A DNA stretch of 26,350 nucleotides from a virus. The notes below the pieces were generated by a model that saw only the letters and a list, made by a program, of their open reading frames with translations, had not been told where the DNA came from and searched no databases. The stretch covers positions 1 through 26,350 of IMG/VR virus record IMGVR_UViG_3300028398_000014; one strand, given 5' to 3'. The position numbers were made by a program, and so were the translations under genes. This document shows positions 3,843 to 25,355 of the stretch, one piece after another. Numbering within the stretch: position 1 is the first letter of the stretch; each line of letters opens with the position of its first letter.

Positions 3843-4070
3843 TTTTAACAAACCTGCTTTTCTTATATTTTTAATTGCTTGAAAAACCCACTCAGCCGGC
3901 TGCTTGCCGGTACGATACGATATAAGTAATCTTTCTTGCGCTTCTAATGCTTTTTGCATTAAAATTACTATTCTCGTCGTTGTGTCATGGTCAAAACCGG
4001 CAATAAAGCCACTACAATCATTATGTTGATATTGACGCAGGGCCGGTAACAATATTTCAGGTGTTTTCAT
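3840..4070 (-). CDS. Small unknown phage protein (76 aa)
   Basis: The ATG at 4070 is preceded by GAGGAGG, so I take it as the start. An in-frame ATG farther upstream (the codons for MIEKKD, near 4148) also has a GGAGG and would add 26 residues, but that extension runs through the repeated element and is unlikely to be under protein selection. The 76 residues are helical and charged (for example the stretch from TRIVILMQ to AQERLL) with no recognised motif and no membrane segment. It is flanked by the two copies of the intergenic element, suggesting a cassette-like accessory gene. Confidence 0.55.
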   Translation of the reverse strand: MKTPEILLPALRQYQHNDCSGFIAGFDHDTTTRIVILMQKALEAQERLLISYRTGKQPAEWVFQAIKNIRKAGLLK

Positions 4071-4090
4071 TATAATCCTCCTCAATAAAA

Positions 4091-4207
4091 GATAACAATC
4101 GCATGGAAGGGACGCTTTGCCAGGTGCGATTTCATCCTTCTTTTCAATCATTATCTTTTCCTCCACATTACCGGGCGCCGGATAGGCGCCCGTCAACTTT
4201 GTCGTTA
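4091..4207 (-). repeat. Intergenic element B (shared with 3728-3842)
   Basis: On the minus strand it starts with TAACGAC at the stop codon of the upstream gene and ends with CATGCGATTGTTATCTTTT before GAGGAGG. It contains a perfect 7-bp hairpin GGGCGCC-TATCC-GGCGCCC (4173-4191) and a second stem ATCGCA...TGCGAT next to the ribosome site. Total length (117 nt) is almost the same as element A (115 nt), although the middles differ. Confidence 0.5.
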
Positions 4208-4482: not shown

Positions 4483-4731
4483 TTACTTTAAACCCTTTGT
4501 ATTAAATTCAAGTATCATATGAGGATAGGCAGTTGAATCAGCTTCTTCAATTAGCTGTAATAACATAAGCCCTATTGAACGTCGGCCCGCATCATACTTG
4601 TATATGGAATCCACGTATAAACCTGAGACCCCTAATAAATGCCACAGCACTTTTCGTCCGGCTTTCGTTTTTAATACCGCACGCAAATCTGCTAATAAGA
4701 AATCATGCTCAGTCGGCTTTTTAATATTCAT
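4483..4731 (-). CDS. Bbp19-like phage protein
   Basis: The 82-residue protein has the pattern FLLADLRAVLKTKAGRKVLWHLLGVSGLY followed by GRRSIGLMLLQLIEEADSTAYPHMILE. I recognise this as the Bbp19 family, named after a gene of Bordetella phage BPP-1 and widespread in short-tailed and some long-tailed phages. Its function is not established; in BPP-1 relatives the gene tends to lie with structural genes. Here it is on the opposite strand, directly behind the replication block. The ATG lies within the end of the 38-codon gene at 4721-4837, whose last codons carry the AAAAGGAGG ribosome site. Confidence 0.75.
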   Translation of the reverse strand: MNIKKPTEHDFLLADLRAVLKTKAGRKVLWHLLGVSGLYVDSIYKYDAGRRSIGLMLLQLIEEADSTAYPHMILEFNTKGLK

Positions 4732-7286: not shown

Positions 7287-7536
7287 CAACATCCTCCTTT
7301 GATTTAATAATATATACTGAGGCTCCTTGCTCTCGCATACGTTTAATTTCTCGTCGCTGTAGTTTAGATAATTTACCCGTGGCTTTTTTAACTTCCACAA
7401 AATGCGCCCCATTTATAAAACATATTCTGTCTGGCACTCCCCGATGCCATGAAACGAACTTGCGGGTGAAACCACCTAGCCATTCGACTCGACGAGTCAA
7501 ATAGGTCTCGATTGCTTTTTCTGTGTTAGAGGCCAT
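7255..7536 (-). CDS. VRR-NUC domain nuclease
   Basis: A 93-residue single-domain protein of the VRR-NUC (PD-(D/E)xK) group. The N-terminal Glu in TEKAIETYL, then GVPDRICF (catalytic Asp), FVEVKKATGKLSKLQ (E-x-K with following Gln) are in the expected order. Family knowledge: stand-alone phage VRR-NUC proteins resemble Holliday-junction resolvase-type nucleases. It has an AAGGAG ribosome site, overlaps the ligase by 32 nt and the upstream gene by 40 nt. It probably acts with the SNF2 helicase on replication or recombination intermediates. Confidence 0.88.
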   Translation of the reverse strand: MASNTEKAIETYLTRRVEWLGGFTRKFVSWHRGVPDRICFINGAHFVEVKKATGKLSKLQRREIKRMREQGASVYIIKSKEDVDEFCRKVVTD

Positions 7537-9805: not shown

Positions 9806-10345
9806 TTATTCAAAATCGCTAACTGAGTCTTCTTTTGCAAACGCCTCAAAAGCCTCTGTAGCGGATTTACGGCCGTCCAATCGTTCGCCCTCTTTATACA
9901 GCATGATATTATTAAGACCCGCTCCAATACCTTTGCCGCCTTTGGGATGATTGTATGGATAGAAATTAACATCAACATGGCAATAACAACCCGAATATAG
10001 CCGATCAGACTCCATTAAAGGTTGAACATTTTCATCAACTATACCAGGTTGATTCTTGTTATATGCGTTAAAAAACATGCAACCTTTATAATGCTCTCCG
10101 CGTTCTTCAGCCTCGACAGCTTCATCTCCATCCCAAAGACAGCGTTTAAAAGTTCGACTTTTCACATTAGCTTCGGTGAACTTACCCGCAGCTATACCTT
10201 TTTTTACTGTATCAGCTATTGCTTTCTGAACCTTAGCTAATTGTGGGTCATCTTTTCGAATCAATACGCAAACACTATATTTATCATTATTTCGTGATGG
10301 CTCGAAAATAAAGGCCCAGTCAATTCGTACATTCTCAATAATCAT
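9806..10345 (-). CDS. DUF2815 single-stranded DNA-binding protein
   Basis: This 179-residue protein matches DUF2815 by its N-terminal 'NVRIDWAFIFEP', central KGCMFFNAYNKNQPGIVDEN, and 'SGCYCHVDVNFYPYNHPKGGKGIGAGLNNIMLYK'-type segment. Family knowledge: DUF2815 proteins resemble T7 gp2.5-type OB-fold ssDNA-binding proteins and usually sit next to DUF2800 and polymerase genes. The C-terminus is acidic and ends with SVSDFE, the kind of acidic aromatic tail by which SSBs recruit partners. It starts at an ATG that overlaps the upstream stop (TAATG), with GGAGG 8 nt before. Confidence 0.88.
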   Translation of the reverse strand: MIIENVRIDWAFIFEPSRNNDKYSVCVLIRKDDPQLAKVQKAIADTVKKGIAAGKFTEANVKSRTFKRCLWDGDEAVEAEERGEHYKGCMFFNAYNKNQPGIVDENVQPLMESDRLYSGCYCHVDVNFYPYNHPKGGKGIGAGLNNIMLYKEGERLDGRKSATEAFEAFAKEDSVSDFE

Positions 10346-11302: not shown

Positions 11303-11749
11303 TTAACCCTCCGGATATAATCTATTGATCTTCTGAAGCTGCTTTATCCAAGTATCAGCCAGCGCAGCCGAAGCAACTTGATACTGTGACTGACAAGTAA
11401 TTTTGGCTAAATGACCTAAAGATATAATACTGAGATCCAAGGCCTCCCTTTCAATATTTAATTTTTCAATAATAATAACACAATTACAGGCCAAATGCGC
11501 CGCATGCGGTAAACCAGTATCTGGGTCAGGTTCATCACTGTTATACTTCGCCAACTGGTGGCGTAGAGCGGCCCCGGTAAACTTATTAAGTGGGGTTTCT
11601 CTCCAGTTATCCGCTCCGTATTTCATTGCCCCGAAAGACATAATTTGCCATACATCTTGTAACAATTTTACATTAGTTATATACTGTGTAGCTACATGAG
11701 GTAATACGGCGAGATCCAATTTTTCTCGGGGCTCCTGAGTTTTATTCAT
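11303..11749 (-). CDS. dATP/dGTP diphosphohydrolase-like protein (DUF5664)
   Basis: The 148 residues contain MKYGADNWRETPLNKFTGAALRHQLAKY, DPDTGLPHAAHLACNCVIIIE, the pattern I recognise from phage proteins annotated as dATP/dGTP diphosphohydrolase N-terminal domain (DUF5664). These are all-alpha, MazG-related proteins. The conserved His/Asp/Glu positions in RHQLAKY and PHAAHLACN are the likely metal and substrate contacts. It starts with GGAGGAGG upstream and runs directly into ThyX. The purine nucleotide specificity is taken from the family label and has not been shown for this protein. Confidence 0.75.
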   Translation of the reverse strand: MNKTQEPREKLDLAVLPHVATQYITNVKLLQDVWQIMSFGAMKYGADNWRETPLNKFTGAALRHQLAKYNSDEPDPDTGLPHAAHLACNCVIIIEKLNIEREALDLSIISLGHLAKITCQSQYQVASAALADTWIKQLQKINRLYPEG

Positions 11750-11829: not shown

Positions 11830-12393
11830 TTACTCAAACTCATCAAACTCAGAGTCTTTTGTCTCATCCACAATCTCAGCCTGAATATTCTCGGACTTAC
11901 CAGCCGGAACTTCAGTAACTGCTGCGGCATCTTCACGAATCTGCTCAATATCAAAACCCGCCTTTTCCGCAACTTCCTCCGCTTTAGCCTGTTCCAATTC
12001 TGCCAATTTCAAATTGATTTCAGCCAAATCGACCCTAAGACCAGTCTCTTCAGACTCCAAGTTCTCGTGCCGGTTCACAGCATTTTCTAAGGTTTTTGCA
12101 CAACGAACTACCCGCTTATCAGCTCTACGAAGCCGTTCAGCCGGATCCTTAGTAGTTCGACCATTTCCTTTTGAGGCCTCCCGAGCTTTAGACCATTCAT
12201 CATAAGTAGTCATTTTAAAGACCCCATCTACTTCAACTGGACAAATATTTGCCCCTGTATATTTGGACGCATTGCGGAACGCGGACAAATATGAACTAAA
12301 TGACCCAGCGGTACATTGAGTCGCCTCCAAAATTTCATCTTTAGTGTATTTCTCCTCTTTCAGCATCGCCAATACATCTTGTTCCTTAGACAT
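11830..12393 (-). CDS. Acidic-tailed, probable DNA-interacting protein (187 aa)
   Basis: Starts after TAAGGAGG. The N-terminal ~50 residues look like a winged-helix or HTH unit (LAMLKEEKYTKDEILEATQ...AGSFSSYLSAFRN). The middle is a long charged coiled coil (about 95-150), and the C-terminus is acidic, ending DSEFDEFE. That tail resembles the SVSDFE end of the DUF2815 protein in the same block. The gene has its own promoter (12440-12468) and a strong terminator, so it is probably made in quantity from a single-gene mRNA. A structural DNA-binding or replication accessory role is inferred. I do not recognise the family. Confidence 0.75.
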   Translation of the reverse strand: MSKEQDVLAMLKEEKYTKDEILEATQCTAGSFSSYLSAFRNASKYTGANICPVEVDGVFKMTTYDEWSKAREASKGNGRTTKDPAERLRRADKRVVRCAKTLENAVNRHENLESEETGLRVDLAEINLKLAELEQAKAEEVAEKAGFDIEQIREDAAAVTEVPAGKSENIQAEIVDETKDSEFDEFE

Positions 12394-13655: not shown

Positions 13656-14077
13656 AATGACGACTCCTGTACAGTAGATAAAAGAGTAATTAAACCGATA
13701 TGAAAGCCATTTTCATAAGCGTCCATAACATCGTTATAGGACCAAGCTACCGCATTGTAACTATGATCCGTTATTAAATCCAAACAATACGCCACTCCAA
13801 TTAGAATTGGTACAACGTCAAAATCCCGCCACTCTTCTTGCGCGTACGCAGTATTCAACATATTCCGAGTCACTTCTGTTATTTTACTTGTTTCGTTTAA
13901 CAATTTACTGCTAGACCAATAAGACGGGCATGTTAAAATTTCTCTACATAGAAAAATGTGTAGAGAAGTATCTGCGAATCGCCTGCATACTTCAGAGTTT
14001 ATTGGGCCTTCATCTAATAAATTCAGCGCTTTTATACTTTGAGCCATTACTTGTTCAACAATTTCTCTTGATTTCAT
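13652..14077 (-). CDS. Unknown helical protein in the replication block (141 aa)
   Basis: Begins at an ATG overlapping the pentapeptide gene stop (TAATG), with GAGAGG just upstream, and overlaps DUF2800 by 4 nt. It is mostly alpha-helical by eye, with several Cys residues and a hydrophobic stretch around FDVVPILIGVAYCLDLI that is amphipathic rather than membrane-spanning. No motif is recognised. Tight coupling to DUF2800 suggests a partner in the same process. Confidence 0.65.
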   Translation of the reverse strand: MKSREIVEQVMAQSIKALNLLDEGPINSEVCRRFADTSLHIFLCREILTCPSYWSSSKLLNETSKITEVTRNMLNTAYAQEEWRDFDVVPILIGVAYCLDLITDHSYNAVAWSYNDVMDAYENGFHIGLITLLSTVQESSL

Positions 14078-14682
14078 TACATCCTCTCAATGTCTGTTCT
14101 GTAATCACATAACCCATTTAATATCGCATCCGGGCAATCAGCTAACCAATCTAGGGCCTCTGAACTTAAATCATTCCAAATTTGCCGGGTTAAATGATAT
14201 ACCAACTGAACGAACAATTTATTGTCTGCTACTATATTAGTGCCCCCACAGTGAAACGGTATTCCAGAGCTATAATCTAGATCTGTCTCTCGAAGATCCG
14301 CTCCCCGAAGATCCGCTTTTTGAAGATCCGCTCCCCGAAGATTCACGCCTCGGAGATCCGCTTCTCGAAGATTCGCGTCTTGAAGATTCGCGTCTTGAAG
14401 ATCTGCTTCTTGAAGATTCGCTCCCCAAAGATCCGCTCCCCGAAGATCCGCTCCCCAAAGATCCGCGCCCTGAAGATCCGCTCCCCGAAGATTCGCTCCC
14501 CGGAGATTCGCTTCTTGAAGATCTGCTTCTCGAAGATTTGCTTTCCGAAAATCCGCTCCCCGAAGATCTGCTCCCCGAAGATCCGCTTTTTGAAGATCCG
14601 CGTAATCACCACCACGACCTTCTAACCACATTTGATGCAGTTCTAATATATTAGCAAGATCAGATTTAGTTAATGCACTCAT
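14077..14682 (-). CDS. Pentapeptide-repeat protein
   Basis: The 201-residue protein has a short N-terminal lead (LANILELHQMWLEGRGG), about 22 consecutive pentapeptides of the A(D/N)LxG type (about residues 27-137), and a 60-residue non-repeat C-terminal domain. Such repeats form a right-handed quadrilateral beta-helix; some members (Qnr, MfpA) mimic B-form DNA and bind gyrase. Here the gene lies in the replication operon just downstream of its own strong promoter. The 15-bp DNA periodicity, with long runs of GAAGATCCGC-like units, shows recent repeat expansion and leaves several other frames open by composition only. Gyrase binding is a hypothesis; many pentapeptide proteins have no known partner. 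Confidence 0.9.
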   Translation of the reverse strand: MSALTKSDLANILELHQMWLEGRGGDYADLQKADLRGADLRGADFRKANLREADLQEANLRGANLRGADLQGADLWGADLRGADLWGANLQEADLQDANLQDANLREADLRGVNLRGADLQKADLRGADLRETDLDYSSGIPFHCGGTNIVADNKLFVQLVYHLTRQIWNDLSSEALDWLADCPDAILNGLCDYRTDIERM

Positions 14683-14730
14683 TCGGTTCCTCCTTTCTTA
14701 AGATTAAAAATTCCAACTTTCTATAAATAA

Positions 14731-14759
14731 ATTATAATAAATTATTTTCTTTGTGTAAA
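14731..14759 (-). promoter_or_regulatory. Strong sigma70-type promoter
   Basis: Minus strand: TTTACA (14759-14754), exactly 17-nt spacer, perfect TATAAT (14736-14731), about 50 nt upstream of the pentapeptide-repeat gene. The sequence TTTACACA..AAGAAAA...ATTATAATTT is nearly repeated in the promoter at 17498-17526, pointing to a common early-promoter type. Confidence 0.75.
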
Positions 14760-14768
14760 TATGAAATT

Positions 14769-17195
14769 CTAGGAAATTTCCTGAACTCTAAAAGGATTTA
14801 TTACAGTGGGTTTAAATATACGTAGCCGATTACCATATTTAACAAATCCATTTTTAACCTCAGTCTTACCTTTTCTACCAGATGGAACTTCTAGCATAGC
14901 ATACAGCCGGCGTAAAACGTGGCCTACTTTTTTCGGATGCCTTGAAAAATCGGTTCCATGAATCTGATCTATATGCTTACATAACTCCAAAATAGTTATA
15001 GTGTAATCTACCACGCTACTTCGAGTAGTCTCCCATTCTCGAATCTGAGTTTCAATTATTTGAGGGTTGATTTGTAAAACGGCATCTAATTGAATTTCAG
15101 CATCTGATTTAGCGCGAAACCCATTATAAATATCAGTCAATCTAGTCTGGGTTTCATCATCTAACTCCCAAGGTGCTCGACCCATTGGATCCGACTGAGA
15201 TAAACGCTTAACTACTTCTCGAACTTGACACCATAACTGTATTTTATTAAATTCGCGTAATTTAGGAATATCTATAGATTTAATCGGCATAACCCACCAT
15301 CGGCGATAACCGCCTTCTGGAAATTTTAATTCAGTATGATTAGTCGAGCCGATAAAAACCGCGGTTCTAGGAACCGAAATAGCTGCTTTTCCATAAGGAG
15401 GCCTATATACGTCTACTGCTTTTGTTATATAATCCTTAAGCATCGCTTGATTCGTTTTTTCAAAAAGAACATCTATTTCACTCAAGCCGACAATAAGTTT
15501 ACCTTTGAGCGTAATCAAAGCATCTTTAGATTTAAGATTTAAAGCCGCTAAATTCTGATCTTGCGCTAAATGACTCCATTCATGTGGAAATAGAAGAGAC
15601 GGTAGAGTTGATTTGCCTTCACCACCGCGCCCCGCTGACATAAGAATAGGTACTCCACCCATAGCTACATTTCTGTGATATGGCGCTAAATTATCGGGCC
15701 ACAGTGACCGAGATACCCCATAAAGCATCTTAGTAAAAAATGTTCGCCACATATCAGTCGGTACTTGGCTAGTATATTTATCTTGTATAATAATGGTGTC
15801 TAGCAGCTCAGTTATATAATCATGGCCATCCCATGGATACTGATCAAGCCACTGCGCAAAAAACGGCCTGGTGTCTGGTTTCGCTATATCATATAAAATT
15901 CGTTGAATCTCGGGATATGTGGGCTGAAGTCCATACTGGTTAAATTGCATCTGCAATATGGGCAATTGGTCTTCTAAGATTTGTTTACTTGAGTCGAACA
16001 TCAATTGTTCATTTAGGTCTTCGTAATATATTGGGAATATCAATCTGTCCGCCCCTTTTATACAGACTTTATCAGTAAGTGCATCTTTAACTACTTTTAG
16101 ACCAGTAAGATTCAACCAATAAATATAATTCGACTCCGCCGCTTTGTTAGGCGTTCCTGCAGCTGATTTTGCGGGCCAATCTGGTCTAAAATGCTGATAT
16201 AACCACCCATAAGTCGCCGCGGTGATTCCGGATTCTTTTGTTACTTCAAGAGATTCCCATTTATCAATCACTTGTTTAGCTGATTCAAATGCCAAATCTT
16301 TTTTAGACCAGGCAATAAGTAATTTTCGTAGAAGAGGTGAATCTTGCCAGGTAGCCCGAATAGCAGTCAAACACGCCAACCAATAATCATAGTGATTCCA
16401 ATTTTTAATTCGACATATATATTGTTCTACAGCGTCTTGTTCATCCAGTCGAACCATAAGCAGCCATCTACTGAGTGGAGTCAATTTCGGCATTTTAGAT
16501 ACCGGCTTAATCCAGCGAAAGTCTATATGGCTAACCATTTCTTCTAAGGGCTGGTCATGAATATCGGCCACATCTACAAAGGTGTTATCCAGTAATTCAG
16601 TCAAACTAGGAACCGGATTTTCCGAGGCAGAGTCTGATTCAGATTTACGGCAAACTTTAGGCCAATTTTGGGTGAGTGCTTCAACTGGTATTTCTGCAAT
16701 TTCAATTCTACATCTTGGGTCAGCAGTTACTATATTATTGGTCAATGTGACATATCCAGTACTGATAAATAATTGCAACTGCTTAGGCGAGTCAACCGGA
16801 TTCTCTAATACTGGCTTAGACGCCAATTTAGCTTTTTGTGATGGGTCGATTTGGTACAAAATACGATACCCGTTACCAGATGGAGAATATTCGATATAAG
16901 TAGGATATTTGGATACGAGGCTATCCAATTTTTCAAATTGATCGATAGAGGTATGATCTACGTCAAAGGCAATAAACGGTTTATTTTTTGTAAGAACTAA
17001 TCCAATTTTAGATCGCTGTTTAATTTGACTCCAGGACATAAATCGGTCGGGCTCATTGATTGGAATTAACGGAAACTTAATTATCTTTTCGGGTTTTTTA
17101 GGGTGTTTTCGGGGTATCCACGGCACAAACATTTTCGTTTTAGATAAGCCTCGCTTTCCAAATAACTTGTTTAGATTAGTATGTTCACTTTGCAT
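14769..17195 (-). CDS. Primase-polymerase / VapE-type helicase fusion
   Basis: An 808-residue replication protein. The N-terminal third looks like an archaeo-eukaryotic primase-polymerase domain: IAFDVDH (Asp78, Asp80), YSPSGNGYRILYQ and QLFISTGYVTLT. The C-terminal half is a virulence-associated-E (VapE) type SF3-like ATPase: WLDQYPWDGHDYI, Walker A SAGRGGEGKST (520-530), Walker B LIVGLSEID (Glu573), then RTAVFIGSTNHTEL and GGYRRWWVMP. It should prime and unwind DNA at the origin. It starts after GGAGA and overlaps the small HTH gene by 11 nt. Being the second gene after the iteron region fits a role in initiation. The substrate of the primase domain cannot be told. Confidence 0.9.
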   Translation of the reverse strand: MQSEHTNLNKLFGKRGLSKTKMFVPWIPRKHPKKPEKIIKFPLIPINEPDRFMSWSQIKQRSKIGLVLTKNKPFIAFDVDHTSIDQFEKLDSLVSKYPTYIEYSPSGNGYRILYQIDPSQKAKLASKPVLENPVDSPKQLQLFISTGYVTLTNNIVTADPRCRIEIAEIPVEALTQNWPKVCRKSESDSASENPVPSLTELLDNTFVDVADIHDQPLEEMVSHIDFRWIKPVSKMPKLTPLSRWLLMVRLDEQDAVEQYICRIKNWNHYDYWLACLTAIRATWQDSPLLRKLLIAWSKKDLAFESAKQVIDKWESLEVTKESGITAATYGWLYQHFRPDWPAKSAAGTPNKAAESNYIYWLNLTGLKVVKDALTDKVCIKGADRLIFPIYYEDLNEQLMFDSSKQILEDQLPILQMQFNQYGLQPTYPEIQRILYDIAKPDTRPFFAQWLDQYPWDGHDYITELLDTIIIQDKYTSQVPTDMWRTFFTKMLYGVSRSLWPDNLAPYHRNVAMGGVPILMSAGRGGEGKSTLPSLLFPHEWSHLAQDQNLAALNLKSKDALITLKGKLIVGLSEIDVLFEKTNQAMLKDYITKAVDVYRPPYGKAAISVPRTAVFIGSTNHTELKFPEGGYRRWWVMPIKSIDIPKLREFNKIQLWCQVREVVKRLSQSDPMGRAPWELDDETQTRLTDIYNGFRAKSDAEIQLDAVLQINPQIIETQIREWETTRSSVVDYTITILELCKHIDQIHGTDFSRHPKKVGHVLRRLYAMLEVPSGRKGKTEVKNGFVKYGNRLRIFKPTVINPFRVQEIS

Positions 17196-17436
17196 TAGTC
17201 AATCTCCGTCGTTGCGCATAAACTGTAGAAGGTTTAACTCCAAGGTGGAAAGCCGTTTCAGCGATTGGTATATTATTATACTGATCCTCGTAAATTTTTT
17301 GCTGTTCTTGTGGACTTATAGGGATACGATGCCCACCACGACGTAAGAATCTGCGCACTTCATCTAGTGCGTATGTGGTATGTGTTTGTAGCAGAGTTTC
17401 TAGTCTACTCCAATGCAGGTAAGAAGTTTGTTTCAT
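17185..17436 (-). CDS. Small helix-turn-helix DNA-binding protein
   Basis: The 83 residues end with a clear HTH: IPIAETAFHLGVKPSTVYAQRRRL (about 56-79), preceded by basic RRFLRRGGHRIPISPQEQQ. GAGGT precedes the ATG. It is the first gene of the minus-strand replication block and is adjacent to the iteron array, so it is the natural candidate for the protein that binds those repeats as an initiator or autoregulator. That link is positional only. A terminase-small-subunit-like or Trp-repressor-like HTH is an alternative fold. Confidence 0.72.
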   Translation of the reverse strand: MKQTSYLHWSRLETLLQTHTTYALDEVRRFLRRGGHRIPISPQEQQKIYEDQYNNIPIAETAFHLGVKPSTVYAQRRRLTNAK

Positions 17437-17497
17437 AATATACCTCTTTGGGCGGAGGTTAGGGTGAAATTTTGATAAGAATTTTTAATGTAAAATT

Positions 17498-17526
17498 ATA
17501 ATAACACTTTTTTCTTAATGTGTAAA
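17498..17526 (-). promoter_or_regulatory. Early promoter of the replication block
   Basis: Minus strand: TTTACA (17526-17521), 17-nt spacer, TATTAT (17503-17498), 62 nt upstream of the HTH gene. It shares TTTACACA, AAGAAAA and ATTATAATTT with the promoter at 14731-14759. It lies immediately beside the iteron array, so repeat-binding proteins could control it. Confidence 0.65.
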
Positions 17527-17635
17527 CCTAAAAATTTTTGTAATTATTTTAAATACTTAGATTTTTAGGGTATTCATCAGTATAAAAGAATATAATTACA
17601 GAATTGTAGTTGGTCGTGTATTAACTCCAAAAGGA

Positions 17636-18346
17636 TGCTAAATCAGCAGCTTAGAAAGCAGGTTTTTTTTAAAAATATTGAAAGATAATAATATCAATGG
17701 GTTATAAATTACCTAATGATATTAGCTACTTGTAGGATTTTTGCTTTATTTTCTTAATAATATCAAAGGTATGTTTAAACTTCCAATGATATTAGTAGGT
17801 TACGAATTATTATAATAATATCAAAGACATGTTTAAAACACGAATAATTTCAATTGGTTAGGAGGCACCACGTCGTGATTCCATAATAAAATCAGCAGGT
17901 TACGCTGCGTTAAATTTTTGTAATTTGGATATTTGTAATAATATTATATACTTATGCACTAGTTTTTACTTTATCAGGCTGAATTGCCCCGAAAAAATAT
18001 GTAATGATTTCAAGTACTTATAAAGTTGAAAATCGCAATTTTCTTAATAATATCAACAGCTTAAGTGATTTTGTTTTACTTTTACCTTTTTTTAAGCTTT
18101 GACACTTTTAATATCGTGTATTTATCGTGATTTTTAATCGTCGGGCAGGACGCCTGCGCTGTGTACCACACCCGAAGAAACGAATGGTCATTCATTTTTG
18201 CATAGGCTATAACGAGCTATTTTGACCCCTCTAATATAAAAAATATACATCTAAGTAACTGATATTATTAGAAAAATTTGTTTTATTTTTCTACGATTTT
18301 TGAAATACAGCTCAAATCTCGCGGCGAGTAAGCCACTGATTTTATT
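17636..18346. repeat. Array of ~12-13 degenerate 18-bp iterons, consensus AATAATATCARYRGSTTA
   Basis: Forward copies begin at 17636 (weak), 17687, 17715, 17756, 17785, 17814, 17843, 17885, 17937, 18003 and 18046. Inverted copies occupy 18252-18269 and 18329-18346. Examples: AATAATATCAATGGGTTA (17687), AATGATATTAGTAGGTTA (17785), AATAATATCAACAGCTTA (18046); the inverted ones read AATAATATCAGTTACTTA and AATAAAATCAGTGGCTTA. Start-to-start spacing in the dense part is 28, 41, 29, 29, 29 and 42 bp, close to three or four helical turns. Such spaced repeats beside primase and HTH genes are what one expects of a replication-initiator binding array. Because the region is AT-rich, the weakest copies could be chance. 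Confidence 0.7.
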
Positions 18347-18500
18347 ATGGAATTAAGCGAATTTTTATTTATTTTTAATTTTTTAAAAGTAAGAAAAACA
18401 AGCCCTGCGTCACATTGAAAAATTTGTAACACTTTATTTTACGCTGCTACCGCGTAAGTATATGGAATTATTACAGAACATTGTGGTATTTTTAAAAGGT

Positions 18501-18554
18501 CTCGTATAGTAACAAAAATAAAAAGAGGCTCGTATAGTAACAATATTCTATACG
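18501..18554 (+). repeat. Direct repeat CTCGTATAGTAACAA x2 plus inverted repeat
   Basis: CTCGTATAGTAACAA occurs at 18501-18515 and 18529-18543 (28-bp period). The second copy also forms a perfect 7-bp inverted repeat, CGTATAG (18531-18537) with CTATACG (18548-18554). The 28-bp spacing echoes the spacing of the iterons, so this may be another protein-binding site of the same control region. Confidence 0.55.
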
Positions 18555-18576
18555 CCACAGTGTAGTATAGCGGTTA

Positions 18577-18756
18577 ATGCACATAGCGCCGCTGACTCGC
18601 AGGGTCGACTATGCCGATGCCGATGCCGATGCTAAGATGGTGTTTGGTTTCTACGCTTCACCGACCCACAGGGTCGACTATGCTGATGTTAAGATGGTGT
18701 TTGGCTTCTACGCTTCACCGACCCACAGGGGCGACTACACAAATACTGGTGTTTAG
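18577..18756 (+). CDS. Possible 59-aa repeat peptide
   Basis: A frame from ATG 18577 to TAG 18756 reads through the tandem repeat and encodes two near-identical copies of KMVFGFYASPTHR separated by VDYADV, then ends with GDYTNTGV. The repeat units differ by multiples of three bases (69 and 57 bp) over the first three copies, which would keep this frame. Against it: no ribosome binding site, a stop just upstream, and another frame (18611-18805) is also open. I do not recognise the peptide. It may be the remnant of a duplicated coding segment from elsewhere. Confidence 0.25.
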   Translation: MHIAPLTRRVDYADADADAKMVFGFYASPTHRVDYADVKMVFGFYASPTHRGDYTNTGV

Positions 18757-18800
18757 CTTTCATGCCTCACCGACCCACAGGGGCGATTGGGTGGATGGCA
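18590..18800 (+). repeat. GC-richer tandem repeat, 3 to 4 decaying units
   Basis: Four units begin with CGACCCACAGGG(T/G)CGA or a variant (near 18591, 18661, 18718 and 18770). Units 1 and 2 share the longer stretch GTCGACTATGC...AAGATGGTGTTTGGYTTCTACGCTTCA; unit 0 also has a GATGCC triplication. Unit lengths are about 69, 57 and 52 bp. The block is richer in G and C than the flanking AT-rich DNA, suggesting separate origin. Confidence 0.75.
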
Positions 18801-18820
18801 GTTGAGGGCTAATAGCAAAA

Positions 18821-18851
18821 ATAAAAAGTGAGGAGGATGCGAGATCCTCCT
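18821..18851 (-). terminator. Rho-independent terminator
   Basis: AGGAGGAT (18831-18838) and ATCCTCCT (18844-18851) form a perfect 8-bp stem with a 5-nt loop. On the minus strand it is followed by CACTTTTTATTTTTG. It lies 8 nt after the stop of the gene at 18860-19165 and should end transcription of the two small minus-strand genes before the repeat and iteron region. Confidence 0.75.
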
Positions 18852-18859
18852 TATGTGGT

Positions 18860-19165
18860 TTATTTGTTGATGTAGACTGGTTCTCCTTTGTTTTCGTCCC
18901 AATACGCTTCGAGAACGATCATGCCCTCGTGCTTGGATATTCCAGCCAAGTATTTCTTTCTGGCGTGTGATAACACACTCGCAAGTGAATTCTTCTTGAA
19001 TTCGTGTGGCCTCTGGTCATCTGGCCAGAGCATGTTAATTGCTTCTGATTCTGTAATGGCGCCCTTGGTTTTGAGATACTCAAAGAGCTGCGTGGGCCTG
19101 GCTGTAGTAGTCGACTTGTTGATACTATTAAGAAATTGTTCTTTAGTTATTTTCTTTTGTGCCAT
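18860..19165 (-). CDS. Unknown protein, winged-helix-like (101 aa)
   Basis: Starts after AGGAGG. The 101 residues contain a probable winged-helix-type segment: TQLFEYLKTKGAITESEAINMLWP, then SLASVLSHARKKYL, and a beta-rich C-terminal end (MIVLEAYWDENKGEPVYINK). This layout suggests DNA binding, but no family is recognised. It is separated from the replication block by the iteron region and has its own terminator, so it belongs to a short, separately transcribed unit with the gene at 19226-19441. A regulator of the early/late switch would suit the position; that is inference. Confidence 0.68.
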   Translation of the reverse strand: MAQKKITKEQFLNSINKSTTTARPTQLFEYLKTKGAITESEAINMLWPDDQRPHEFKKNSLASVLSHARKKYLAGISKHEGMIVLEAYWDENKGEPVYINK

Positions 19166-19225
19166 TTTGCTACCTCCTGTTGATGATGATAGAAATAAGG
19201 GTTAATAGTAAGTGAACCATGATTA

Positions 19226-19441
19226 TTATATACATTGTCCATAGTAACTTAAAATAGGCCGTTTACGACCGGTTGATTCTGTGAATTGAAGATAGAGTTC
19301 ATAGTGCGCCCCGAATTTGTGTTCGAGGCACATTAAACTTCGTAAGCATTCTACTGTAGTGCTGAGTGCCTCCTTATCACTCTTGCAGTTGAGGTTTATA
19401 GTATGAACGTTGTGTTGCGTATACCATTGCATGGTGTACAT
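19226..19441 (-). CDS. Small unknown protein (71 aa)
   Basis: ATG preceded by AAGGAGGTAAAA. The 71 residues have a mixed alpha/beta look: strand HNVHTINLNCKS, helix KEALSTTVECLRSLMCLEHKFG, strand AHYELYLQF, then RKRPILSYYG. This beta-alpha-beta order resembles a small ferredoxin-like fold, but there is no signature. It is the first gene of the two-gene minus-strand unit facing the late promoter region. Function unknown. Confidence 0.6.
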   Translation of the reverse strand: MYTMQWYTQHNVHTINLNCKSDKEALSTTVECLRSLMCLEHKFGAHYELYLQFTESTGRKRPILSYYGQCI

Positions 19442-19498
19442 TTTTACCTCCTTGGTAATGGTTGGGATTTATTACTTCATGATTGTTTAGTTAGATAC

Positions 19499-19541
19499 CC
19501 GACGGTCGGCTGACAGTTTAATGCGGCTTTAGTCTAGCCGC
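19499..19541. promoter_or_regulatory. Two palindromes upstream of the small minus-strand unit
   Basis: CCGAC-G-GTCGG (19499-19509) is a perfect 11-bp palindrome, and GCGGCT-TTAGTCT-AGCCGC (19523-19541) is a perfect 6-bp inverted repeat with a 7-nt loop. Both lie within 100 nt upstream of the gene at 19226-19441, where an operator would be expected. A weak -10-like TATCTA lies beside the first. The rest of 19442-19607 shows nothing else beyond a GC-rich patch. Confidence 0.4.
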
Positions 19542-19607
19542 GACGAGTAGAGGAGGGCCCGGGGAAAATTAGGCGGACGGACCGGAGGGATAGTCGATTC
19601 ACAGCTA

Positions 19608-19845
19608 CAGAGCTAATTTAGATCCTTAAACATATCTACGTTTAGAAGAATAAATTGCAGAGCTAATTTAGATCCTTAAACATATCTACGTTTAGAAGAA
19701 TAACTGTGGAGAAGAATAACTGTGAAGAAGAATAAATTACAGAGCTAATTTGGATCCTTAAACATAGTTATGTTTAGAAGAATAACTGTGAAGAAGAATA
19801 AATTGCAGAGCTAATTTGGATCCTTAAACGTAATAGTGTTTGAGC
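19608..19845 (+). repeat. Four ~50-bp tandem repeats with internal palindromes
   Basis: Copies begin with CAGAGCTAATTT(A/G)GATCC at 19608, 19658, 19740 and 19806. Each is followed by a palindromic core: TTAAACATATCTACGTTTA (copies 1 and 2), TAAACATAGTTATGTTTA (copy 3, perfect 8-bp arms) and a more diverged AAACGTAATAGTGTTT (copy 4), then AGAAGAATAA. The extra length between copies 2-3 and 3-4 is made of 16-bp subrepeats AGAAGAATAACTGTG(G/A). The block sits upstream of the late promoter and so resembles an operator or activator array. Confidence 0.85.
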
Positions 19846-20006
19846 TCAAAATTACTCTGAAAATCTTTGTAACATAATATAGCGCGTAAATGAATACACG
19901 AGTTACAATATTCTGAAATCAGATTGATTCTGGTTTAAATTTAGCTATTTTATGTGAGTTCTATATATGCGCGTGCACATATAATATATAGGACGCGGCA
20001 AAGACC

Positions 20007-20034
20007 TTTACTTTTTTTAAAAATAGTGTATAAT
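20007..20034 (+). promoter_or_regulatory. Late promoter giving a leaderless mRNA
   Basis: TTTACT (20007-20012), 16-nt spacer, perfect TATAAT (20029-20034). A start 7 nt after the -10 falls on the ATG of the terminase small subunit at 20041, and no ribosome binding site precedes that ATG. The 19846-20006 stretch before it also has TTGTAAC...GTTACAA and TATATG...CATATA inverted repeats but no gene. Confidence 0.6.
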
Positions 20035-20040
20035 ACAAAT

Positions 20041-20532
20041 ATGGGAACAATATTACCTGCTACTATCAGAGCTGCTAAATTTGATTATGAGTTTCTTGGT
20101 AGATCCACCAAGGAAATCGCGGAACTTTATTCACTTCCTGAGGCGTCCCTAAAAGCCGAAATTCAGCAACAATCCTGGACTCGCAAATTTAATTTTCCTA
20201 CACCGCAGACTGATGATTTAGAAACTTTAGAAGATTTTGCTCGCGGAGTAGACGCCAGAGCTAAAGCCCAGCTCCTAATAATGTCATCTTACCGGCAACT
20301 ACAGCAGCAAAGTCTTTTAGCGGCTGTAGAAGATACTTTATTGGAAAAATCAATGGCTATTTTGGGGTCGTTATCCTCCTCCGACCCGAGCAGCGCCGCG
20401 GCTCTGACGTCTATTATGCGAGTAGTTTCAGCTATCCAAGAACGCCAGCAAACAGTCACCGGAAAAGTTTCGACTCAGGAATTAGAAGAGGGTAATAAAG
20501 TAGTAGTACAGATTCAGAATAATATCACATGA
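20041..20532 (+). CDS. Terminase small subunit
   Basis: I choose ATG 20041 because the -10 box ends 7 nt upstream; the frame is open to a GTG at 19954, but that would place the promoter inside the gene. The 163 residues have an N-terminal HTH (FLGRSTKEIAELYSLPEASLKAEIQQQSW), typical of DNA-recognising TerS proteins, a helical oligomerisation region (ARAKAQLLIMSSYRQLQQQSLLAAVEDTLLEK) and a short C-terminal beta segment (KVVVQIQNN). It would recognise the packaging site and load TerL. The stop overlaps the TerL start (ATGA). The family is inferred from HTH plus position. Confidence 0.82.
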   Translation: MGTILPATIRAAKFDYEFLGRSTKEIAELYSLPEASLKAEIQQQSWTRKFNFPTPQTDDLETLEDFARGVDARAKAQLLIMSSYRQLQQQSLLAAVEDTLLEKSMAILGSLSSSDPSSAAALTSIMRVVSAIQERQQTVTGKVSTQELEEGNKVVVQIQNNIT

Positions 20533-21953
20533 AAGTTAAATTGCCCATAGTAGATCTTAGGAGTTATCAGAAACCGCTATGGAATTATATGCTGCAGTCC
20601 AAACCTGGTCTTCGAGCGGTAGTTGTTTGGCCTCGTCGAAACGGAAAAGATCTAGTAGCAATTAACATACTAGCGGCTAAAGCGCTTCAGCGCCCAGGAG
20701 ATTATGCTTATATTGCGCCTTTTGCTAATCAGATGCGAGGTATCATCTGGGAAGGACGTGATGGAACCGGTACTAGATTCATCGACTATGTACCAAGAGA
20801 GCTTGTTAAGCGCTCTTTAGATCAAACAATGAAACTGTGGTTAGCTAATGGAAGTACTATTCAGCTGTTTGGTTCTGATAACCCAGATAGTTTAGTTGGC
20901 CGTAATTTCGTCGGAATGGTTTTTACCGAGTTTTCACTGCATAAGGATTTAATCTGGGGTTATATGCGGCCAATGCTTACTGAGAATGGTGGTTGGGCGC
21001 TGTTTAATGGGACCCCAAGAGGGATAAATCACTTTTATGCAATAGCGCAGGTTGCTAAAAGTTCTAAAAAATGGTTTTATGAGCACTTGACAGCTGAGGA
21101 TACTGGTTTTCCGTCTAAGGAGGATATAGAGGAAGAGCGAAAGGCCGGCATGGCAGAGTCGTTAATCGATCAAGAGTTTTATACCTCATGGACGGCATCA
21201 TCAGAAGAAACACTGATTCCACTGGAGTCATTAAAAATCTGTTTAAAAACAGTGGTGGTTCCTAATAGCCAGACAGCTTACCCACGATTGTTGGGGGTTG
21301 ACCCAGCCTATGCGGAAAAAGGGGATAATGCCGCAATTTGCGAGCGCCAAGGACGAATTGTAAGACCGGTATGGGCGCAACGAGGGGTTGATCCTATGGA
21401 TTTAGCCTCATTAGTATCGGCTAGAATCATTGAACGAAAAATAGATTATGTTTGTATTGACGCTGGGCGAGGTGAAGCAGTTTGGTCTCGGTTGCTTCAG
21501 TTAGGGCATGGATCCAAAGTTATAGTAGTAAATTTTGGAGGACGAGCCGCGAATCCGCTTAAATATACGAATAGAAAAACTGAAATGTGGGACCGAGCGC
21601 GGCTGTATCTCTGTAATAAAGCTTTACCACCGCAGTTACCCCCAGATGAAAAGCTGATTCGAGATCTGTCGGCGCCGATGGTAGAAAAGAATGAAAAAGA
21701 GCAGCTAACTCTGGAGTCGAAGAAAAGTTTATTAAAACGGGGATTTCGGTCTACAGATAGGGCCGACGCGCTAGTTTTGACTTTCGCTGAAGATTTTGAT
21801 TCGATGGTGGATCCTCGGGTTGAACAGTTGGCTAAACGTACGGGATTAGATCGGTATGCCATAGGTCAGATGTTGGAACGGCATGACCAGGCATCGTACA
21901 ATCCCTTGGAGTTCATGGAGCAGATTCAAAGGTCTTCAGACTCATGGAGATAA
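20529..21953 (+). CDS. Terminase large subunit
   Basis: The 474-residue protein shows a Walker A-like VVWPRRNGKD (33-41), Walker B NFVGMVFTEF with Glu134 as probable catalytic base, a coupling-type FNGTPRG, and the C-terminal RNase H-like nuclease with LLGVDPAYAEKGD and VCIDAGRGEA plus a later Asp in RSTDRADALVL. This is the ATP-driven motor and nuclease that cuts and packages DNA into proheads. It overlaps TerS by 4 nt and the next gene by 10 nt. The TE in place of the usual DE in Walker B is common among podovirus terminases. Confidence 0.95.
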   Translation: MKVKLPIVDLRSYQKPLWNYMLQSKPGLRAVVVWPRRNGKDLVAINILAAKALQRPGDYAYIAPFANQMRGIIWEGRDGTGTRFIDYVPRELVKRSLDQTMKLWLANGSTIQLFGSDNPDSLVGRNFVGMVFTEFSLHKDLIWGYMRPMLTENGGWALFNGTPRGINHFYAIAQVAKSSKKWFYEHLTAEDTGFPSKEDIEEERKAGMAESLIDQEFYTSWTASSEETLIPLESLKICLKTVVVPNSQTAYPRLLGVDPAYAEKGDNAAICERQGRIVRPVWAQRGVDPMDLASLVSARIIERKIDYVCIDAGRGEAVWSRLLQLGHGSKVIVVNFGGRAANPLKYTNRKTEMWDRARLYLCNKALPPQLPPDEKLIRDLSAPMVEKNEKEQLTLESKKSLLKRGFRSTDRADALVLTFAEDFDSMVDPRVEQLAKRTGLDRYAIGQMLERHDQASYNPLEFMEQIQRSSDSWR

Positions 21954-23670: not shown

Positions 23671-25355
23671 TTTCTTTCAAAAAAGCGGTTTCCATGTATC
23701 AAGAACTCTTAGAAGAACGGAGAGTTTATGAGCAAGAATGGAAAAAAGTTTCAAGATATTTATTGCCAGAAAGAGGGGTATACGCGCAATTATCGGCACC
23801 ACGTAAGCGTCGACTAACCTCGGCAGCTATTGTTAATTCAGCTGCTGAGGATTATTTGGGAGTATTGACCTCTGGAATTCATGGGGCATTAACATCTCCT
23901 AGTAAGCCTTGGTTTCGGCTATCCTGGACTTCAGAGCGCGCAAAACAGATTGAGGAGTTAAAAGCCTGGTTGCAACAGGCAGAGGTAATTTTACAACGAG
24001 CGTTACAGGCTAGTAATTTTTATTCAGTGATTGAAGATGGTTATCAAGAGTTATGTGGTTTTGGAGTAAATTCAGTATTTGTTAGTGAAAATTCTGACAC
24101 TGAGGCCGGTTTCTCGTTTATTCCGCTTACTATCGGAGAGTATTTATACACTCTTAATCCTAAACTTACTGTCGACACGTTTGTACGGGTTTTTTACCTA
24201 TCTCCTCAGCAAATTTATGATAAGTATGATAGGGTTCCATCAGAGATAACTAAAATAGTTAAAAACAGGGAAGCAAGTCAATTTAAAGTTGATCGGGTCG
24301 TATTGGAAGTGGTGGAACCCGAGAAAAAGGGGTCTTTTGAGTACGTTAGGCAAGTATTTTTGTATACAACCGATAAATCGGTAGAGAATTCTAGCCGGGT
24401 ACTTCAGACAGATTATTTCTATGAGATGCCGTATATGGTTGGTCGATGGTCGATTATTAACCGGGATGCCTACGCCATTGGCCCTGGAGTAAAAGCCATA
24501 CCTGATATTAAACGGCTTCAAGAGATAGAGAAATCCGCGCTTATGGCTACTCATAAAATGGTAGATCCACCGTTGGCCATACCGGCGCATCTACGTGGGC
24601 AACTAAAAACATTGCCGGGGGCTCAGAATTATACTGCGTCTCCTACTGATAAAATTACTTCACTGTATGATGTTCGATTAGATATAGCTAATGCGGGGGC
24701 TATGGCTGAACGTATTGAACAGCGAATTAAAACTAAATTTTTTAATGACGTATTCTTGACGGCAGCTCGTGACCCTAATGCTTCACCGTATAAGGCAACG
24801 GAAGTAGTAGCACGCGAGCAAGAGCGCGCCTTGCGATTAGGCCCAGTTATTGAAAAATTACAAGGGCATTTTTTGAACCCTATTTTGGAACGATGTTTTA
24901 ATATTCTATTGCGTCAAGAAAAATTTCCACCATTGAATCCAGAGTTGGTGCAATTCATAAATGGTTATGATATAACGATTATTAGCCCATTAGCGATAGC
25001 GCAGCGTCAAGGGGCTCTTCAGAATATAAATTCATTTTTGGCCTTCATTGGCCAAGCAGCACAATTTGACCAATCCGTTTTGGACAAGATAAATATTGAT
25101 GCAGCTGTTGATGAGTACGCCGATATAACCGGCGTACCTTATGGTGTGCTTCGTATGACGAAAGATGTTCAGCAGATTAGGCAACAGCGAGCTCAGATGC
25201 TTCAACAAGAGAAAGAACAACAAGATAGATTACAGCAAGCTGAGACGGCTGGAACTGTAGATGTTCAACGAGCTGCAGCTACAAAGACTCAAGCTGAGGC
25301 AGGAGCTATACTTATTGATGGCCAACAAAAAGCAGCTGAAACAGGTTTAATTTAG
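23667..25355 (+). CDS. Portal / head-to-tail connector protein
   Basis: The 562 residues match the podovirus head-tail connector family (T7 gp8-like, Bbp-type): an N-terminal helix-rich LEERRVYEQEWKKVSRYLLPERG, then TSGIHGALTSPSKPWFRLSW, a middle stem region with WSIINRDAYAIGPGVKAIPDIKRLQEI, KATEVVAREQERALRLGPVIEKLQ, and a C-terminal Gln-rich coiled coil (about 500-550). It forms the dodecameric ring through which DNA enters and leaves. It lies between two small proteins and the scaffold, and ends 9 nt before the scaffold start. About the family's usual length. Confidence 0.93.
   Translation: MISFKKAVSMYQELLEERRVYEQEWKKVSRYLLPERGVYAQLSAPRKRRLTSAAIVNSAAEDYLGVLTSGIHGALTSPSKPWFRLSWTSERAKQIEELKAWLQQAEVILQRALQASNFYSVIEDGYQELCGFGVNSVFVSENSDTEAGFSFIPLTIGEYLYTLNPKLTVDTFVRVFYLSPQQIYDKYDRVPSEITKIVKNREASQFKVDRVVLEVVEPEKKGSFEYVRQVFLYTTDKSVENSSRVLQTDYFYEMPYMVGRWSIINRDAYAIGPGVKAIPDIKRLQEIEKSALMATHKMVDPPLAIPAHLRGQLKTLPGAQNYTASPTDKITSLYDVRLDIANAGAMAERIEQRIKTKFFNDVFLTAARDPNASPYKATEVVAREQERALRLGPVIEKLQGHFLNPILERCFNILLRQEKFPPLNPELVQFINGYDITIISPLAIAQRQGALQNINSFLAFIGQAAQFDQSVLDKINIDAAVDEYADITGVPYGVLRMTKDVQQIRQQRAQMLQQEKEQQDRLQQAETAGTVDVQRAAATKTQAEAGAILIDGQQKAAETGLI

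Follow-up and report, generated by a model that had tools for sequence, protein, structure and literature searches.

A conserved array of asymmetric 20-bp sites, probably part of the replication start and early-gene switch, heads the primase–VapE operon of podovirus-like phages

Introduction

What does an array of short repeats do in the non-coding gap that heads the replication operon of a phage? The DNA analysed here (the window) comprises the complete IMG/VR virus record IMGVR_UViG_3300028398_000014, 26,350 bases long, in which no direct or inverted terminal repeats of 11–200 bases were found. Its early replication genes run leftward from 17436, encoding HTH, primase/VapE, exonuclease, ThyX, SSB, PolA, ligase and SNF2 proteins, and its late genes run rightward from 20041, encoding small terminase-like, TerL and portal proteins, the names ligase, SNF2 and small terminase resting in part on reading of the sequence. 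Three early genes frame the array:

17185–17436, minus strand: gene for an 83-aa helix-turn-helix (HTH) protein, overlapping vapE by 11 bp (Pfam HTH matches all below cut-off)
14769–17195, minus strand: gene for an 808-aa primase-polymerase/VapE (SF3-type) helicase (PF05272, E 6e-27)
18860–19165, minus strand: gene for a small early protein of 101 aa, across the array from vapE (homologues in the relatives L193 and L194)

The VapE protein, which would be the replication initiator, also matches Prim-Pol (E 0.002) and PriCT_2 below the Pfam cut-off as well as PHROG helicase/primase families, and Pfam finds no Toprim domain in it at E ≤ 1. The predicted fold of the 83-aa protein (pLDDT 60) has no PDB match at E ≤ 0.001. 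The 101-aa protein appears winged-helix-like by eye, and a gene in the same place in the relative L190 has only 22–24% identity to it. Directly after vapE lies a pentapeptide-repeat-like gene (14077–14682) with 15/45-bp DNA repeats, similar genes being present in several relatives.

At the alpha origin of P4, repeats are bound by a primase–SF3 helicase with a winged-helix domain. A sequence-only reading of the present locus had noticed about a dozen repeats between 17636 and 18346 and proposed them as a candidate replication origin or controlled promoter, with the 83-aa HTH protein or VapE as the binder. Here we define the repeated site, follow it into related phages and weigh what it may be for.

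Results

A position-matrix search found 14 copies of a 20-bp asymmetric site, NTAATRAWWTYARNNRSTTRN, between 17540 and 18474, 11 of them forward and then 3 inverted, in the order of orientations described earlier. All are supported by the matrix and by leave-one-out scoring:

17540–17560, plus strand: copy 1, promoter-proximal (13.2 by leave-one-out, with 0.024 expected in a matched shuffle; similar position in relatives)
17685–17705, plus strand: copy 2
17713–17733, plus strand: copy 3
17754–17774, plus strand: copy 4
17783–17803, plus strand: copy 5
17812–17832, plus strand: copy 6
17841–17861, plus strand: copy 7
17883–17903, plus strand: copy 8
17935–17955, plus strand: copy 9
18001–18021, plus strand: copy 10
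18044–18064, plus strand: copy 11
18251–18271, minus strand: inverted copy 12
18328–18348, minus strand: inverted copy 13
18454–18474, minus strand: inverted copy 14

At a score of at least 11, the full matrix gives 14 matches in the array region, whereas 500 matched dinucleotide shuffles average 0.086 and never exceed 1. When each accepted copy is scored with a matrix made from the remaining 13, a matched shuffle is expected to hold no more than 0.054 matches as good; with the cleaned matrix the 14 sites score 15.6–23.5. The enrichment against a matched background also holds in a de novo count over 17437–18576, in which one 19-mer, itself an inverted motif copy, has 12 non-overlapping matches at up to 5 mismatches (mean 5.1, maximum 9 in 100 dinucleotide shuffles). 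At looser settings the best word is another AT-rich word, with 18 places for a 19-mer with 6 mismatches (mean 10.7, maximum 15) and 12 for a 16-mer with 4 mismatches (mean 7.7, maximum 12, reached by 1 of 100 shuffles). Outside 17437–18576, at most 1 of 50,380 places matches an accepted copy's score under its leave-one-out matrix, these matrices still including a candidate at 17634 that was later discarded. The information content averages 0.67 bits per core column as against 0.18 in the flanks, in a site set that held 17634 in place of 17540.

The array noticed by the sequence-only reading is thus borne out, with a wider extent and a revised list of copies. The initial matrix search gave 16 candidates, from which 17634 and 17618 were dropped. 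The former (17634–17654, plus strand), which had been taken as the first copy, has a leave-one-out score of 2.1, expected 7.0 times per matched shuffle, and is possibly at best a right half-site; the latter was dropped by eye and also scores below 11, since the cleaned matrix yields exactly 14 matches at or above that score. A forward copy on the left (17540) and an inverted one on the right (18454) had been overlooked. The start-to-start spacings of the accepted copies are 145, 28, 41, 29, 29, 29, 42, 52, 66, 43, 207, 77 and 126 bp, so that the steps of 29 and about 41 bp described before do recur; their description as three to four helical turns needs a small correction, because 28–29 bp corresponds to about 2.7 turns, and the copies therefore do not all lie on one face of the helix.

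Several other readings of the repeats were discarded. Coding repeats are ruled out, no ORF of at least 60 aa overlapping 17540–18474; CRISPR is ruled out by the unequal spacing; and the single Rfam match (17.4 bits, E 0.93, where the gathering score is 50) gives no RNA family. The inverted motif contains TGATATTAT, which might have been an extended −10 promoter on each copy, yet its bases 8–9 vary where a −10 element should not.

Two further repeats were seen between the array and the gene at 18860–19165. Four copies of GACYCRCAGGGKCGAYT lie within 18594–18790 (at 18594, 18663, 18720 and 18772; spacing 69, 57 and 52), one of which can form a 6-bp hairpin, with no Rfam family, and a 22-bp repeat with CTCGTATAGTAACAA occurs twice at 18494–18543, its copies being 28 bp apart and promoter-like in the rightward direction.

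With TerL as the query, five relatives at 56–60% identity were obtained, two of which (L191 and L192) end before the region, leaving three that are informative. In these, the syntenic gap was taken as that between the HTH–vapE operon and a small early gene in place of 18860–19165. With the window matrix, sites scoring at least 12 are present in this gap in all three, at 7519 (plus), 7570 (plus) and 7643 (minus) in L193, at 7420 (plus), 7492 (minus) and 7797 (minus) in L190, and at 4637 (plus) and 4805 (minus) in L194, the counts being reached by 0 of 1000 shuffles in each case, and the rest of the three loci, amounting to 55,771 bases, has no match of this strength. The arrangement with forward sites toward vapE and inverted sites toward the late genes is kept in 3 of 3. 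The conservation in relatives that the sequence-only reading had called for is thus found. Over whole contigs, 3 of 5 matches scoring at least 11 in G012 and 3 of 4 in G013 fall in the syntenic gap, the others lying at 1025 (16.9) and 34892 (13.1) in G012 and at 23684 (11.9) in G013. Single matches of 16.9 were observed beyond the SNF2 3′ end, at the far end of the early operon, both at G012 1025 and at L013 15301, and L112 has the same letters at 2121 as the latter.

Two more phages give weaker support. In the distant relative G002, the syntenic gap has a best score of 16.9 (reached by 0 of 500 shuffles), which ties for third among the 2.81 Mb of loci with the cleaned matrix, and four copies of TTCAGTGG (4 of 500 shuffles have four copies of any 8-mer); the syntenic region of G001 has one weak site, reached by 1.2% of shuffles over 331 bases and by 4.2% over 1345 bases. 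Among 188 overlapping loci (2.81 Mb) gathered before the TerL search, no kilobase holds more than two matrix matches above 11, and the more distant MW202510 has two scattered matches scoring at least 12 (14997 and 28048) and no cluster. A DNA-level search of phage records with 14769–19205 gave no match. Relatives found by VapE or PolA did not extend to the region, nor did the portal relatives L002 (54%, 4.9 kb) and L005 (27%, 5.7 kb). A three-copy motif pattern run over IMG/VR returned two stretches, both tandem repeats of other origin and by eye not relatives. No close cultured member of these phages was found in the phage collection. No bacterial genome was found with VapE, and the TerL alignment of bacterial genomes gave a single contig of 4.9 kb, from a Deltaproteobacteria MAG; no motif match on it exceeds 9, its 2.3 kb upstream hold no vapE, and it is too weak a match to name a host. 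A gene like that at 4483–4731 of the window (early, minus strand) adjoins the 3′ side of the portal gene in L002 (2839–3069) and in L190–L194, and has thus moved between operons.

The array sits at the same place in all four phages (the window, L193, L190 and L194), in the non-coding gap heading the early HTH–vapE operon, with a small HTH-type gene at this operon position in each. The array also shares the inter-operon region with the small-terminase-like gene, 1.6 kb before it, and could consist of cos/pac repeats; this we regard as very improbable, because 19557–19841, nearer to that gene, holds another cluster of repeats together with a conserved CGGGG(G)AAA element, which would be better candidates. 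The CGGGG(G)AAA element, a candidate cos/pac site, precedes the small-terminase-like gene in the window and in three relatives (about 9155 in L190 and about 5985 in L194). Tandem repeats before this gene were seen in the window (19557–19841), L193 (9075–9240), L104 (4591–4704) and L093 (1969–2096); they differ in sequence in the window, L193, G001 and G002, and the window repeat AAACATATCTACGTTTAGA resembles AAACATATCTTTGTTAGA of G001 by eye.

A promoter is predicted at the left border of the array, beside copy 1:

17498–17526, minus strand: sigma70-type promoter TTTACA-17-TATTAT before the HTH–vapE operon (consensus match)

A promoter of the form TTTAC-17-TAT(A/T)(A/T)T leading into this operon is predicted in all four phages, chosen among the matches as the leftward one nearest the sites. 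The nearest site lies upstream of the predicted −35 by 13 bp in the window, 12 in L193, 13 in L194 and 21 in L190, and in each phage its TAAT end faces the promoter with an A-tract between. Promoter-like matches number 22 against 13.2 expected in the window (16800–20600), 2 against 1.7 in L193, 4 against 5.0 in L190 and 2 against 2.2 in L194; since those in the relatives are about as numerous as chance predicts, the support comes from the recurrent arrangement and not from the matches alone. This positional evidence makes it somewhat more likely than not that the array, through copy 1 if not more widely, acts in transcription of the replication operon, which does not exclude a role as origin.

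The same arrangement suits a purely transcriptional operator array, in which a phage regulator would control the early leftward promoter, perhaps with a DNA loop joining forward and inverted sites, and replication would begin elsewhere. In three of the phages the site centre falls at about −58/−59 and in the remaining one at about −67, an activator-like place, and the few sites in the relatives suit an operator; the spread of fourteen copies through 0.93 kb, with most copies lying hundreds of bases away from the promoter, does not, and promoter scans of the four phages found no mirror-placed promoter beside the inverted sites. We consider a pure operator possible, at somewhat long odds, the predicted DNA stability (below) bearing on it from both sides.

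By nearest-neighbour stability, the least stable 50 bp lie in the syntenic gap in L193 (7735–7784), L190 (7752–7801) and L194 (4756–4805), touching an inverted site in the latter two, and five of the six least stable 50-bp segments of the window lie in the array region. Two segments of the window are of interest:

18230–18279, no strand: low-stability AT-rich segment over inverted copy 12, the second least stable 50-bp segment of the window and a candidate unwinding element
17468–17567, no strand: least stable 100 bp of the window by predicted stability, around the promoter and copy 1

Iteron origins combine several near-identical repeats of about 17–22 bp in non-coding DNA, an adjacent initiator gene and an AT-rich unwinding element beside the repeats. 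The window has the first in its 14 copies, the relatives having only 2–3; the adjacency is seen in all four phages; and a candidate unwinding element is present on predicted stability, the exceptions being the 50-bp value of the window, whose very least stable segment is 14722–14771, 3′ of vapE, and the 100-bp minimum of L194, which is also 3′ of vapE. The unstable AT-rich DNA adjoining the inverted sites speaks against a mere operator, and the small number of sites in the relatives, few for an iteron origin, speaks against an origin.

Very unstable AT-rich DNA was also observed shortly 3′ of vapE in all four phages (window 14722–14771, L193 4638–4687, L190 4117–4166 and L194 1572–1729). In L190, a 14-bp stem with a long loop lies directly 3′ of vapE (4060–4200, minus strand, z −2.7), similar to that of pRN1; L194 has other hairpins there (z −5.45 and −1.06 in two stretches), and no large stem-loop was found 3′ of vapE at 14670–14790 of the window (z 0.04) or in the stretch of L193 that was folded (z 0.25). 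Such a stem-loop was proposed in PMC4234260 as the origin for proteins that combine primase-polymerase, SF3 helicase and winged-helix domains, which makes the DNA 3′ of vapE a serious rival place: the stem-loop of L190 and the AT-rich DNA common to the four phages could be the origin instead, leaving the array to transcription.

The cumulative GC skew, which is confounded with gene direction, has its minimum inside vapE, on the same side of the array and about 1–2 kb from it, in the three genomes with both features (the 500-bp segment with the minimum begins at 16001 in the window, at 11501 in G012 and at 27001 in G013), and is thereby near both candidate places. The minimum expected from the sequence-only reading is accordingly close to the array and not at it. 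In G015, a contig without vapE and the region, the minimum is at 24501. The candidacy as an origin or controlled promoter survives, as the enrichment and the conservation hold; whether the array includes the replication origin is, on this evidence, evenly poised.

Discussion

The results described above point to an array that is, with high probability, a functional, conserved protein-binding element, and that is probably part of the replication-start and early-gene switch of these phages. The reading we prefer, to which we give a probability of about one half, is that the stretch is the control region heading the replication operon of a podovirus-like lineage and most likely includes the replication origin. 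In the predicted mechanism, the repeats would be covered by a sequence-specific protein. At the copy next to the promoter (its centre at about −58, counted from the predicted −10) this protein may tune transcription of the HTH and primase/helicase genes, and along the array it would build a nucleoprotein complex that promotes melting of the AT-rich DNA nearby, where the primase-polymerase/VapE helicase could then be loaded.

The earlier proposal for the binder is not supported. Both proteins it named are poorly conserved between the phages that share the motif, the HTH proteins having 11–27% identity between the window and its relatives (11–36% over all pairs) and VapE 25–26%, whereas eight of nine other early genes have 38–57%. 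Among the relatives, VapE identity is 42–56% (35–41% in the C-terminal part), and the C-terminal 115 residues of the window protein match those of the relatives at 17–26%. Taking the window, G012 and G013 together, the SNF2, ThyX, SSB, MazG, VRR and 187-aa proteins are about equally far apart (36–57%, all pairs), and for PolA, exonuclease, TerL and portal the identity between the two relatives is 4–10 points above their identity with the window; the gap for VapE is about 18 points (25–26% as against 44% between G012 and G013), and that for DNA ligase is about as large (33–35 as against 53). Because of the ligase, we read vapE as exchanged or fast-diverged, not as simply replaced, and on these comparisons it appears to have been exchanged or to have diverged fast on the window's side, with the site nearly identical throughout.

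That the repeats are iterons of VapE or of the 83-aa HTH protein, like those of P4 alpha or of plasmid Rep proteins, is rather unlikely in our judgement. The operon order is the same in all four phages, the modelled C-terminal region of VapE has the helix/strand order of a winged helix, though at pLDDT 41, and the low VapE identity may mean fast divergence rather than replacement, as the ligase gap of the same size illustrates; against this, the motif is nearly identical despite a VapE identity of 25–26% and an HTH identity of 11–36%. The constancy of the site through these changes points to a factor that did not change, so that the binder is probably not VapE but either another early protein of the phage or a DNA-bending protein of the host. 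That it is a non-initiator phage protein or some further factor is the assignment toward which we tentatively lean, the one to VapE or HTH being held doubtful. One phage-encoded candidate would be the 187-aa early protein (11830–12393; 43–46% identity in all pairs), in which Pfam finds no DNA-binding domain and a helix-turn-helix character is suggested only by reading of the sequence. This protein and the SSB (9806–10345) have similar acidic tails, DSEFDEFE and DSVSDFE, as if a partner were shared.

The host alternative is a DNA-bending protein of the IHF type, for which the array would be a wrapped enhancer or origin scaffold. Motif positions 8–20 match in register the IHF consensus WATCAANNNNTTR, as given in PMC10380432; A12, T19 and R20 are present in 22 of 22 sites, T-tracts precede the promoter-proximal copies, and a host factor would explain why the motif has outlived the change of vapE. 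The likeness thus comprises the core in register, the asymmetry and an A/T-rich upstream flank. The motif differs in an additional fixed TAATRA and RS, and TAATRA, its most constant block, lies outside the IHF core (exact in 19 of 22 sites, with R16 in 22 of 22), whereas the C of the IHF consensus is kept in 15 and its second A in 9 of the 22. With at most one mismatch, the IHF pattern occurs 11 times in the window against a mean of 4.4 (reached by 2 of 200 shuffles) and 6 times in L193 against 1.4 (1 of 200), but it is not enriched in L190 (31 of 200) and absent from L194; of the 14 window sites, 2 carry the exact consensus, a count reached by 8 of 200 shuffles, and 9 carry it with at most one mismatch, as do 5 of 8 in the relatives. 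An IHF-like binder, and with it the scaffold, is therefore an unlikely choice.

Returning to the control region with a probable origin, it is worth comparing with known systems. It is akin to the P4 alpha origin in having short direct repeats next to a gene that unites primase and SF3-type helicase (for P4, in part from PMC4234260), and differs in the motif and in the primase domain, which is Prim-Pol-like in the window and Toprim in P4; repeat binding by VapE in the manner of P4 is disfavoured by the VapE divergence. As in pRN1 (orf56 repressor and orf904 primase-helicase), a small DNA-binding protein gene directly precedes a primase-polymerase/SF3 helicase gene, although the origin proposed for pRN1 is a large stem-loop 3′ of the gene (PMC4234260) and none is seen 3′ of vapE in the window. 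The origin of the PLE1 satellite, which according to PMC8263062 has three semi-palindromic iterons of about 30 bp bound by RepA, is similar in placing a few iterons in non-coding DNA of a phage-like replicon, and different in that the motif of the window is asymmetric and of 20 bp. Literature searches by subject, rather than by motif letters, in a collection with few subscription journals found no description of the motif, and none combining VapE, iteron, origin of replication and phage.

The array may also be regarded as a standing "adaptor" of the phage group, that is, an origin or early-switch element read by a conserved non-initiator factor, such that vapE could be exchanged while the element and its binder stay, the lineage of the window having 14 copies and its relatives 2–3; we offer this as a speculative and on balance unlikely generalization. 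What was a repeat recognized by eye can now be described as a conserved element of 20 bp whose position with respect to the replication operon and a predicted promoter is specified. The constancy of its site across the strong change of vapE is a hint that the initiator does not itself read the repeats. If the array is the origin, these phages would represent a primase-polymerase/VapE-type replicon with an iteron-like array, as against the stem-loop suggested for this set of domains in PMC4234260.
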